Of a stretch of DNA of 64,000 nucleotides, positions 44,740-49,196 are shown piece by piece. The translations under genes and the position numbers were made by a program. Where the stretch lies: assembly GCF_014697545.1 (NCBI RefSeq), contig NZ_JACJSA010000010.1, positions 1 to 64,000 of the forward strand. The letters are read 5' to 3'. Position 1 is the first letter of the stretch. Every line of letters begins with the position of its first letter. The notes beneath the pieces are model-generated. The model worked only from the letters and a program-made list of their open reading frames with translations. It ran no database searches and was not told the origin of the DNA. The stretch is from Oscillatoria sp. FACHB-1407. Lineage in GTDB: Bacteria; Cyanobacteriota; Cyanobacteriia; Elainellales; Elainellaceae.

Positions 44740-44866
44740 GAAGGATAAAGGATAAAGGATAAAGGATGAAACAAGAATCAAATTTGTAGGGTGCAGTTAG
44801 CGTCAGCGTAACGCACCTCAACGTTGACCCCCTTTTTATCCTTCATCCTTAATCGTTTATCCTTTC
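44740..44866. repeat. Inverted GGATAAA/GGATGAA heptamer repeats
   Basis: AAGGATAAAGGATAAAGGATAAAGGATGAAAC (44741-44772, three perfect GGATAAA units; longest unit run described in pieces) faces TTTTTATCCTTCATCC and TTTATCC (44833-44864) on the same strand, so RNA could fold. The right-hand copies run to 44866, into the last codons of the peptide-ABC ATPase gene, which ends at 44849. It lies at the junction of the convergent transglycosylase and peptide-ABC ATPase genes. Confidence 0.65.
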
Positions 44867-46597
44867 CATTTGTCCTTGCTTCGTTTGCAGCACCGACAAC
44901 AGGGGAGCCGCTTGCAAAAGGGTTTGCGTGTAGGGATGTTGGGGTTGGGTGAAGATAGTTTCCGTGTCTCCCAGTTCCACAATTTGACCCGCTTTCATGA
45001 CGGCAATGCGATCGCACAGGAACCTTGCGACCCAGAGATCGTGGGTGATAAAGAGGTAGGTCAGGTCAAATTCTCGCTTCAGATCCAGCATCAGGTTCAA
45101 CACCTGAGCCTGAACGCTGGCATCGAGCATACTGACGGGTTCATCGCAGATCAGCAGTTTGGGACGGGTAATCAGCGCACGGGCGATTGCCACACGTTGT
45201 TGTTGCCCGCCAGACAAGTCACTCGGATAGCGGTGGTAATAGTCGTCAACGGGGGTTAAGCCAACTCGCTCTAACATAGCTTCGACTTGCTTTTTAGCGG
45301 CGATCGCGTCGGCTAAATGATGGATCAGCAAAGGGTCAGCGATGCTCTGCCCAACGGTCATTGCTGGGTTGAGGCAGGCGTGGGGGTCTTGAAACACCAT
45401 TTGCATCTGCCGTCGCTGTTCCCGCAGTGCAGAAGGCGAGAGGCGAGTCAGGTTGTTCCCTAAAAACTCGACCTGTCCAGCCGTGGGGCGAATCAGATGC
45501 AGAATCGTGCGAGAGAGGGTGCTTTTGCCACAGCCCGACTCCCCGACCAAGCCCAAAATCTCACCTTGATAGAGGTCAAGGCTGACTCCATCTACCGCTT
45601 TGATGACGCTATTGGCTTGCTTGGTGATCAAACGAGCCACGAAATTTTGCTCCAGGGTGTAATGCTTTTGCAAATTCTCCAGGCGCAGTAAGGGAGTTTG
45701 GGGAACAGTCCCGTTGCTACCAGATGGAGGGGATGGAGGGGTTTGGGATGAACTGGAGTCAGCGTGAATGTGGAGGGCAGCTTCGAGGAGCGATCGCGTG
45801 TAGGGGTGCTGAGGCTGAGACAGAACGGTTTGGGTCTTGCCCTCCTCGACCAGATTACCGTCGTACATCACCGCAATGCGATCGCAATACTCCCCCACGA
45901 GAGCTAAGTCGTGAGAGATCAGCAACAATGCCATGTTGCGCTCTTTGCACAGACGGGTTAACTCTCGCAAAATTTGCGCGGAAACCGTCACATCCAGACT
46001 GGTGGTTGGCTCATCTGCCACGATCAACCGGGGATTTAGCAACAGAGCTAGAGCGATCGCCACCCGTTGCCGCATTCCGCCGCTAAACTCATGGGGATAT
46101 TGTGACCAGCGACTGGCAGGAATTTTGACCGCTTCTAACGTGGCGATCGCCCGTTCTTTAGCCGCTTGGCGTGACAAGTTGGGTTCATGTGCCAGCAGGG
46201 TCTCAACGCAATGCTCTCCAATGGTCATCAACGGGTCGAGACGAGTCATCGGGTCTTGAAACACCAACGCTACGGCTTCACCCCGAAACTGGCGCAACTC
46301 GGTTGGGTTAAAATCCAACACCGATCGCCCGTCAAACAACACTCGTCCTTCAATCTGCGTGGAACGAGGCAACAACCGCATTGCCGCCCGTCCGAGCGTG
46401 GACTTGCCACAACCCGACTCCCCGACCAACCCCAACCGCTCACCGGGGTTCAGCGTTAGGGAAACATTGTTGACAGCCCAACGGGTCGGGGGCGCAGGCA
46501 ACGAGTTTGGGTCAGAAGATTCAGCCAGAGCAGAGGAACCGCTGCGTTGAGGGTAAGCGACTCGCAACTGGTCAATACAAAATAGGGCACTGGTCAT
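44849..46597 (-). CDS. Fused dipeptide/oligopeptide ABC transporter ATP-binding protein
   Basis: A 582-residue protein with two complete ABC domains, as in fused DppDF/GsiA-type ATPases. Domain 1: Walker A GLVGESGCGKSTLG, signature FSGGMRQRVAIA, Walker B LIVADEPTTSLD. Domain 2: GLVGESGCGKSTLS, LSGGQQQRVAIA, LLICDEPVSMLD. Oligopeptide-type C-terminal cysteine-rich tails are missing. The permease and binding-protein genes are not adjacent. ATG at 46597 (MTSALFCIDQL) is preferred; a frame to 46618 adds seven residues. Confidence 0.9.
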   Translation of the reverse strand: MTSALFCIDQLRVAYPQRSGSSALAESSDPNSLPAPPTRWAVNNVSLTLNPGERLGLVGESGCGKSTLGRAAMRLLPRSTQIEGRVLFDGRSVLDFNPTELRQFRGEAVALVFQDPMTRLDPLMTIGEHCVETLLAHEPNLSRQAAKERAIATLEAVKIPASRWSQYPHEFSGGMRQRVAIALALLLNPRLIVADEPTTSLDVTVSAQILRELTRLCKERNMALLLISHDLALVGEYCDRIAVMYDGNLVEEGKTQTVLSQPQHPYTRSLLEAALHIHADSSSSQTPPSPPSGSNGTVPQTPLLRLENLQKHYTLEQNFVARLITKQANSVIKAVDGVSLDLYQGEILGLVGESGCGKSTLSRTILHLIRPTAGQVEFLGNNLTRLSPSALREQRRQMQMVFQDPHACLNPAMTVGQSIADPLLIHHLADAIAAKKQVEAMLERVGLTPVDDYYHRYPSDLSGGQQQRVAIARALITRPKLLICDEPVSMLDASVQAQVLNLMLDLKREFDLTYLFITHDLWVARFLCDRIAVMKAGQIVELGDTETIFTQPQHPYTQTLLQAAPLLSVLQTKQGQMERIND

Positions 46598-46937
46598 TGC
46601 CACTGAGTTCCATCGCAAAGGAGCAAACGAGGTAGAAGAGCAAAGTAGACATCATATAGCAGGTTATATTCCACTACTCAATCTCCACCTTGCCCTCATC
46701 AACATGCTCTCAGAAATCGGGAACGTCTAGCTCGTTATATCAAGCACCTCTGTCTTAAATTGTGTAGTTCATTACTTTTAGCGATCGCAACGGTCTATTT
46801 TGTCACTTAAGGCACGGTTAAGGATGCAACAACTAAGTGCCCCTGCAACTGATAATCTTATGGAGTATCGTGAAGGGATTGGTCTCTTTTGACTCAAATT
46901 TCCCTAATTTCCACCATTTGCAGGCTTATAGCTGTCC
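46598..46937. other. Promoter region of acyl-ACP reductase; no ado gene
   Basis: 340 nt without a coding frame. In many cyanobacteria the aldehyde-deformylating oxygenase gene lies directly upstream of acyl-ACP reductase; here there is none. A candidate -10 element (GATAATCTTAT, 46851-46861) lies about 75 nt upstream of the start codon. Confidence 0.5.
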
Positions 46938-47963
46938 ATGTTTGGTCTAATTGGTCATCTCACAAGTTTAGAACACGCTCAATCCGTTGCTAGAGAGTTA
47001 GGTTATCCAGAATATGCTGACCAGGGGTTAGACTTCTGGTGTAGTGCTCCACCTCAAATCGTAGACACGATCAAAGTAACCAGTGCGACTGGTCAACAAA
47101 TTGAAGGGCGATACGTCGAGTCCTGCTTTTTACCAGAAATGCTAGCCACCCGACGCATCAAAGCCGCTACCCGCAAAATTATCAACGCCATGGCTCATGC
47201 TCAGAAGCATGGCATCGACATTACCGCTCTGGGCGGGTTCTCCTCCATCATCTTCGAGAATTTCAATCTGGAGCAGATCCAACAGGTTCGCAATATCAAG
47301 CTAGAGTTTGAACGGTTTACAACAGGCAATACCCACACCGCTTACATCATTTGCCGTCAGGTCGAGCAGGTCGCGCCGAAGCTGGGCATTGATCTCGCTA
47401 AAGCAACCGTTGCGGTCTGTGGGGCGACAGGCGATATCGGCAGTGCGGTGTGCCGTTGGCTGGATGCCCGTACGGATGTAGCTGAATTGCTGTTGATCGC
47501 GCGCAACCAGGAACGACTGCAAGCGTTGCAGGGCGAACTCGGTCGGGGCAAAATTATGAGCCTTGAAGAAGCGTTACCTCAAGCCGATATTGTGGTTTGG
47601 GTTGCCAGTATGCCCAAAGGGGTTGAGATTGACCCAACCACTTTGAAGCAACCCTGTCTCATGATTGATGGAGGGTATCCCAAAAACTTGGCAACAATGA
47701 TCAAACATCCAGGAGTGCATGTGCTGAATGGGGGTATCGTGGAACACTCCCTCGACATCGACTGGAAAATCATGAAGATTGTCAATATGGATGTCCCCGC
47801 TCGTCAACTGTTTGCTTGCTTTGCGGAGTCTATGTTGTTGGAGTTTGAGAAGCTCTACACCAACTTCTCCTGGGGACGCAACCAGATCACACTCGACAAG
47901 ATGGATTTGATTGGACAGGCTTCCATCAAACATGGATTCCAACCGCTGTTAACGGTCGCCTAA
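46938..47963 (+). CDS. aar: Long-chain acyl-[acyl-carrier-protein] reductase
   Basis: Reduces fatty acyl-ACP with NADPH to fatty aldehyde, the first step of cyanobacterial alkane synthesis. It is 341 residues; the Rossmann NADPH motif [10 protein letters not shown] lies at 161-170 and the acyl-accepting Cys, C294 in LFACFAESM, matches the catalytic Cys294 known in the Synechococcus enzyme. The N-terminal half ([18 protein letters not shown]) is the usual family start. Its partner aldehyde oxygenase (ADO) is not adjacent, so alkane production depends on a distant ado or the pathway ends at aldehyde/fatty alcohol. Confidence 0.97.
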
Positions 47964-47972
47964 TTGGCAGGA

Positions 47973-48032
47973 TGAAGCATTTGCAGTGAAAAGCTCTGGC
48001 AGAAGGCAAAGGGTGTTCATGCAAATGCTTCA
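47973..48032. terminator. Inverted repeat between convergent aar and CDF genes
   Basis: TGAAGCATTTGCA (47973-47985) and TGCAAATGCTTCA (48020-48032) are perfect 13-bp inverted repeats with a 34-nt loop, beginning 9 nt after the aar stop. The right arm ends four bases before the opposing stop codon. It is likely a bidirectional transcript-end structure; no T-run is present. Confidence 0.55.
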
Positions 48033-48035
48033 CGC

Positions 48036-49016
48036 CTACTCTGTTTTATTGACGGTTTCTAAGATTGGTAGAGCAGGTGGGTTAGACAGATTGAGCGGTT
48101 TGATTCGCAACGGATTCGCCATCTGTAACATTACTTCTGAAAGATTGAACTCTCGTTGCAACGTCTCTTGAATGTGAAATAAGAGGCGATCGCGCTCTTG
48201 TCCATCGGTGCTCTCAACCGTTAACTGAGCCATCAGCAACTCTTGTCCAGGGGCGATCGCCCATGCTCGTAAGGTGTTCACTTCCTTCACCCCTTCCATT
48301 TGCTCAATGTGCGTTTGGATTTGAGCTAAATCGAGATGGCTCGGCGTTTTTTCTAACAAAATATCCAAACTTTGGCGAATTAGCGGAATTGCACCAACGA
48401 CCACGAACACCGCTACGAGCAAGCTAATCGCGCCATCTGCCCAATTCCATTGCCATGCCCAGATAGCGATCGCCGCGAGCAGCACCCCCACCGAGCTAAT
48501 CGCATCGGCAACCATATGCAGAAATGCGCCGCGCAAGTTCAGATCGTGGTGACTGTGATCGTGCAGTAGAAAAGCATTCAGGCTATTAATACCCAGACCC
48601 ACCGCCGCCGTAATTAGCATCGGCATTCCCAGAATCTCAACTTCCGGGGCTTGCAGTCGGGTCATAGCCTCCCAACCAATCCACAGGGCGATCGCCACTA
48701 ACCCAATACCATTTGCCAGGGCAGCTAGAATCTCGACCCGTCGATAACCAAACGGTGCCCGATCTGAGACAGGCAAGCGAGCTAGCCAGGTTGCGACCAG
48801 AGCTAACCCCAGTGCCAAACAATCAGACACCATGTGGCCTGCTTCGGCCACCAGTGCCAGACTGTGGCTTGTGAAACCGACAATCAGTTCGGCGATCGCA
48901 AATCCGCCAATCAACAGCAAGGCAGTCAGCAGAAGCCGAGCCTTACTGGGATCAGAGGCGTTCACAGCATGGGTATGGTTACAACCCGGATGACAATCAG
49001 CGGAATGATAATGCAT
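48036..49016 (-). CDS. Cation diffusion facilitator (CDF) metal exporter
   Basis: A 326-residue CzcD-like antiporter exporting Zn2+/Co2+/Cd2+ in exchange for protons. Six membrane helices; metal-site motifs HMVSD (TM2) and HMVAD (TM5) both HxxxD, giving the Zn-type site. A His/Cys-rich N-terminus (MHYHSADCHPGCNHTH) and an internal His cluster (HDHSHHD) are metal-binding. The C-terminal cytosolic domain is ferredoxin-like. ATG at 49016 is chosen; an upstream ATG frame to 49055 is possible. Confidence 0.92.
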   Translation of the reverse strand: MHYHSADCHPGCNHTHAVNASDPSKARLLLTALLLIGGFAIAELIVGFTSHSLALVAEAGHMVSDCLALGLALVATWLARLPVSDRAPFGYRRVEILAALANGIGLVAIALWIGWEAMTRLQAPEVEILGMPMLITAAVGLGINSLNAFLLHDHSHHDLNLRGAFLHMVADAISSVGVLLAAIAIWAWQWNWADGAISLLVAVFVVVGAIPLIRQSLDILLEKTPSHLDLAQIQTHIEQMEGVKEVNTLRAWAIAPGQELLMAQLTVESTDGQERDRLLFHIQETLQREFNLSEVMLQMANPLRIKPLNLSNPPALPILETVNKTE

Positions 49017-49196
49017 TACGGCACCAGAAGGCACGAGCAATAAATCGTCAAACACCAGATTAACCCTAAAGGAAGGGAGTAGGGGAGGAAGGAGGAAAGG
49101 ATAAACGATAAAGGATGAAGGATCAAAGGGAAGAGGTGCGATTTATCGCGTCTGTGAGAGGGAGGGAGTGGGAGAGGGGGAGTAGGGGAGTAATTT

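Follow-up and report, generated by a model that had tools for sequence, protein, structure and literature searches.

The window analysed here, the first 64,000 nucleotides of contig NZ_JACJSA010000010.1 of Oscillatoria sp. FACHB-1407, carries a complete gene for long-chain acyl-ACP reductase (AAR), aar, located between genes for a peptide-type ABC transporter ATPase and a cation-efflux (CDF) family exporter (Table 1). The region at 46598-48032 singled out by the original prediction corresponds to aar together with its intergenic flanks. In a profile search, AAR matched the NCBIfam model TIGR04058 with 672.8 bits (cut-off 449.7). Cys294 is present within the stretch QLFACFAE, and a nucleotide-binding motif with the stretch GATGDIG starts at residue 160; we take the former to be the active site and the latter the Rossmann nucleotide motif. 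A search of the genome found a single copy of aar. No gene for aldehyde-deformylating oxygenase (ADO), ado, was found next to aar at this locus; in the canonical ado-aar cluster it is positioned directly upstream. The intact reductase gene, the missing neighbour and the identity of both flanking genes thus all stand as originally described.

The partner gene was found elsewhere in the same genome. A single, complete ado lies on another contig (C7:284686-285339, minus strand), with a product scoring 415.5 bits against PF11266 and 416.2 bits against TIGR04059 (cut-off 222.65). It keeps E32, E60, H63, E115, E144 and H147, which we assume to be the six ligands of the diiron centre. The accA, SDR and folE genes lie together on contig C21, so that ado, aar and the accA trio occupy three separate contigs of this 66-contig draft. 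With both genes present at different loci, the genome is of the split type and, given the ado on C7, it is not one that has aar without any PF11266 gene. The original prediction had proposed that the pathway may be split or the aldehyde used otherwise, adding that an ado elsewhere, along with normal alkane production, would make the case only a rearrangement. The whole-genome search returned such an ado, which bears out the split and the genomic half of the latter statement, while another use of the aldehyde found no support in this strain; as a whole, that interpretation was partly supported. Loss of ado, with the aldehyde feeding into fatty alcohol, free acid or wax, would agree with the lack of ado beside the window's aar, and aar without a detectable ado does occur in other genomes. 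However, the complete ado refutes the loss itself and no olefin synthase (OLS) was found in a search of the window's genome; we regard this explanation as very improbable. Judged from its genes, the AAR/ADO pathway of this strain is complete and merely split.

Table 1 Features at the aar locus of the window
Feature	Coordinates	Strand	Description
Peptide-type ABC transporter ATPase	44849..46618	-	589-aa frame; two ABC_tran domains and oligo_HPY
Intergenic region, 319 bases	46619..46937	+	likely seat of the aar promoter, as the upstream gene is divergent
aar, long-chain acyl-ACP reductase	46938..47963	+	complete, 341 aa; TIGR04058, Cys294, NADPH motif
Cation-efflux (CDF) family exporter	48036..49055	-	convergent with aar; Cation_efflux/ZT_dimer

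Both genes were searched for in 60 genomes, comprising the window's own and those of 59 relatives. Adjacency was tallied for the best aar and ado matches; 12 weaker or fragmentary aar matches and one ado fragment were left out, none of which sits on a contig that could change a genome's status from separated to adjacent genes. For 31 of the 36 genomes in the window's family, positions were obtained for both genes, and in no case are the two adjacent. They lie on different contigs in 28 and far apart on one contig in three, at distances of 4.12 Mb (G002), 2.94 Mb (G008) and 1.41 Mb (G023). G002 and G008, both single-contig genomes, also bear on the possibility that the two genes are truly adjacent in the window's strain and that contigs were misjoined or broken. 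Even though the draft state of the genome would allow for this, aar is internal to a long contig and flanked by complete genes, the two single-contig relatives are likewise split, and the neighbourhood of ATPase and aar recurs in named relatives; we give an assembly artefact next to no credence.

Among the 24 genomes from other families, ado lies directly upstream of aar in 20 and apart from it in two (G037 of family f3 and G040 of family f6); G038 has neither gene and G045 has ado only. In G040 (L162, L166), the two genes are ~0.71 Mb apart and no peptide-ABC ATPase adjoins aar. Adjacent genes have been reported for 138 of 181 cyanobacteria, with split cases also noted (Klahn et al. 2014, PMC4094844). 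The claim that ado and aar are normally adjacent therefore holds for most cyanobacteria, including 20 of the 22 genomes with both genes outside the window's family, but fails within that family. In a named collection of 80 aar loci, ado was found directly upstream in 63. The other 17 (L061-L074, L076, L078, L085), which include the 14 best matches and carry names such as Elainella, Oculatella, Pegethrix and Drouetiella, have no ado in the DNA examined, which extended 10 kb upstream of aar for eleven loci, 2.1-8.2 kb for five and 663 bases for L085.

Second, diverged ado copies were observed in five of the 60 genomes (L201-L205, in G001, G011, G041, G030 and G004, respectively). They are 59-66% identical to the ado of the window's genome and keep all metal ligands. 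Genomes with two ado genes have been mentioned previously (PMC3903477).

We then compared the neighbourhoods of both genes in split and unsplit genomes. All 11 unsplit loci compared have the gene order permease (minus strand), ado, aar; accA follows directly after aar in six of them and one frame later in another, and was not present in the flanking DNA examined in four. A divergent sugar-ABC permease also lies upstream of ado in all eight split-type ado loci fetched, seven from the window's family and one from f3. The f3 locus (L147) has a 93-aa frame between permease and ado, and in L148 the ado frame was masked by a longer overlapping frame. On the aar side, 16 of the 17 named split loci have the ATPase gene immediately upstream in the same orientation, with gaps of 109-509 bases, and three (L062, L066, L073) have accA directly downstream. 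The order ATPase-aar-accA occurs in all four f3 genomes sampled. Where an ATPase was found in unsplit genomes it did not adjoin aar (11 of 11); G055 had no ATPase match. Because the permease is kept at the ado loci and accA at some of the aar loci, the breakpoint lies between ado and aar, and a break in this gap is probably common to the window's family and f3. Furthermore, the split state is clustered on a tree of 43 aar sequences, where it requires 2 changes compared with a mean of 14.6 after shuffling.

These arrangements suggest that the chromosome of an ancestor of the window's family broke between ado and aar. Following the break, ado would have stayed behind the divergent sugar-ABC permease, while aar, with accA-SDR-folE still on its far side, would have come to lie downstream of the peptide-ABC ATPase. 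Later, in the window's lineage, accA-SDR-folE would have ceased to lie beside aar and the ATPase gene would have been reversed. AAR would still convert acyl-ACP into fatty aldehyde and ADO the aldehyde into alkane, and both enzymes could still meet in the cell. Acquisition of aar by horizontal transfer, unlinked from ado, would likewise leave the two genes apart. However, the window's aar shares 81-92% (mostly 87-92%) identity with the aar of family members and groups with them in the tree, at weakly resolved forks, and accA-SDR-folE are still found beside aar in some relatives. Such a transfer seems highly unlikely, and the genes themselves point, with very high probability, to an ordinary alkane pathway, presumably with normal alkane output, in which an ancestral rearrangement separated the two genes.

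Several observations weigh against a rearrangement of this kind, or against its having happened once. One of the two genes was missing from the assembly in five of the 36 family genomes, and a few drafts have aar at the end of a contig (with 57 bases upstream in G020), so that adjacency is formally possible there. accA adjoins aar in no more than three of the 17 named split loci, the genes downstream of ado vary among most split genomes, and the reciprocal junction was not found in the ATPase neighbourhoods of six unsplit genomes (L154-L159) or the ado neighbourhoods of eight split genomes. The aar tree needs two changes rather than one and does not resolve a single origin; unsplit Myxacorys and Lyngbya aestuarii sequences are placed between split ones, at forks with weak support. 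Finally, splitting happened more than once, with G040 representing a separate case.

The immediate surroundings of aar differ between the window and its relatives. The CDF exporter is a neighbour of aar in none of the 28 other loci compared, and the ATPase gene is reversed relative to the 16 named relatives in which it directly adjoins aar. The same-strand position of the ATPase gene directly upstream in those relatives raises the possibility that aar came under the ATPase transcript after the split, thereby gaining a link to peptide uptake. In the window, however, the ATPase gene is divergent, which rules out transcription of aar from it. A promoter-like element was also detected upstream of aar in all 15 split relatives tested, compared with a mean of 1.8 in shuffles, although the pattern was picked after viewing the alignment, into which 15 of the 17 split loci had entered, and the count is thus not an independent test. 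Both points argue against control by the ATPase transcript, which we consider very unlikely. The same pattern occurs in three of nine adjacent-type sequences (shuffled mean 0.8), and the alignment upstream of aar is poor outside the short element. In the intergenic region of the window, the best matches to the TTGTGTAGTATT element observed in relatives are weak, with 3 mismatches, and lie at -178 and -80 relative to the start codon.

In all strains tested by Klahn et al. 2014 (PMC4094844), ado and aar are reported to have a promoter each, and in Anabaena 7120 a native two-promoter construct restored heptadecane while an engineered ado-aar operon failed (PMC6186262). Since the two genes have their own promoters in the strains tested, a split should cost little and is unsurprising.

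Genomes that do have aar but no detectable ado were found in a class-wide sample of 388 genomes, searched with E values of up to 1e-80 for aar and 1e-40 for ado. aar was detected in 362 genomes, ado in 358, both in 356 and neither in 24. Two genomes (G014, G045) have ado only and six (G033, G151, G215, G227, G307, G310) have aar only; none of these six yielded an ado even with the threshold relaxed to E values of up to 1. G227 and G310, with a partial aar, and G033, a 91% complete draft, were set aside. The three genomes kept are G151 (100% complete), G215 (99%) and G307 (96%, in 550 contigs), which belong to one genus of another family, distant from the window. Their full-length aar products score 637.9, 635.0 and 616.6 bits against TIGR04058, respectively, and keep Cys294.

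In these genomes an olefin synthase occupies the position of ado. The locus of G151 and G215 (L167, L168; upstream flanks L173, L174) reads cryptochrome (minus strand), bcp, g8, amylase, ABC (minus strand), FAAL, PKS, DUF6208, desaturase, aar, accA, SDR, folE. Five congeners (G163, G233, G204, G267, G319) have the same genes on either side, with ado between ABC and aar, and in seven further congeners ado-aar likewise adjoins this ABC gene, with variation farther away; accA comes next in 10 of these 12. The domains of the G151 olefin synthase, the one scanned, are an AMP-ligase with ACP followed by KS, AT, KR, ACP, sulfotransferase and a thioesterase-like alpha/beta-hydrolase, the set named for olefin synthases in PMC7381351. 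In G307 (L169), where the contig starts within the PKS frame, the order is PKS, DUF6208, aar, accA, SDR, folE; among the OLS+aar genomes, FAAL and the upstream flank were thus seen in G151 and G215. Four other congeners, G302 (L175, L196), G296 (L176), G316 (L198) and G402 (L199), have PKS-DUF6208 followed directly by accA. Neither aar nor ado was matched in the stretches fetched at these OLS-accA loci; G398-G402 were not searched genome-wide. In the upstream flank of G302, the genes on the ABC side are the same and two additional frames precede FAAL.

Altogether, 11 of the 26 genomes examined from this genus carry an olefin synthase: three with aar beside it, four with accA directly beside it, three (G293, G262, G398) with neither in the DNA examined, and G290, where the contig was too short. 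Across 68 chosen genomes, OLS was found in 21, of which three have aar only, one (G045) ado only and 17 neither gene, and in none of the 42 that carry the aar and ado pair. Among the 24 genomes lacking both genes, OLS was present in 18 of the 19 tested, the exception being G134. The full AAR/ADO and OLS pathways therefore exclude each other, but single leftovers exist. In G045, a diverged ado (L184:7828-8550) immediately precedes a one-piece olefin synthase, and no aar was found in the genome; this ado is 50% identical to that of the window's genome, keeps the ligands and scores 294 bits against TIGR04059.

We also compared the evolutionary rates of aar in these states. The dN/dS of aar was 0.07-0.09 in five comparisons involving an OLS+aar genome versus 0.02-0.03 in four ado+aar sister pairs, whereas accA gave 0.01-0.04 and 0.01-0.03 in the same pairs, with some dS values near or above 1. 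In OLS genomes, aar is thus faster evolving yet constrained, under purifying selection, a pattern compatible with retention for a different function as well as with slow decay. A conserved block upstream of aar is kept in G151 and G215 and diverged in G307. The OLS carriers are dispersed over the flank-gene tree, yet the synonymous distances of OLS are comparable to, or somewhat below, those of the flanking genes; this fits repeated entry, and just as well an old tandem with ado-aar or an exchange of alleles. It is conceivable, although we lean slightly against it, that AAR has been kept for an ADO-free job and that the two hydrocarbon pathways replace each other at a single chromosomal slot. 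If so, switching would proceed from ado+aar through OLS+aar to OLS alone, with G302, G296, G316 and G402 apparently in the end state, and aar in the intermediate would make aldehyde for another use or be a slowly decaying remnant. The OLS/aar genomes would then show the chromosomal site at which one pathway displaces the other, and because this site is seen in natural close relatives, the reason for the mutual exclusivity would be testable there.

The single-gene genomes and the OLS/aar neighbours contradict two published generalisations: that no genome has just one of aar and ado, as stated by Klahn et al. 2014 (PMC4094844), and that genomes with an olefin synthase contain neither the AAR/ADO pathway nor pseudogenes of that pathway, as stated by Coates et al. 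2014 (PMC3903477). In the titles and abstract openings of the literature searched, there is no report of aar adjoining an olefin synthase, which does not establish priority.

Compared with known systems, the window's genome has the same AAR and ADO enzymes as the canonical ado-aar(-accA-SDR-folE) cluster; its accA-SDR-folE genes are still together but lie apart from both ado and aar. The other cyanobacterial hydrocarbon route, the OLS pathway, is the one not found in this genome. The closest likeness is to the split ado/aar genes of Klahn et al. 2014 (PMC4094844), of which the window is another case, and the split itself is ordinary. The guess of a broken pathway is thereby corrected, and adjacency proves not to be kept across a whole family with both genes. 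Two differences from that report can be drawn: the flanking genes here put the breakpoint between ado and aar, a point without discussion in the available part of its text, and the split described here is common to one family and the four sampled f3 genomes.
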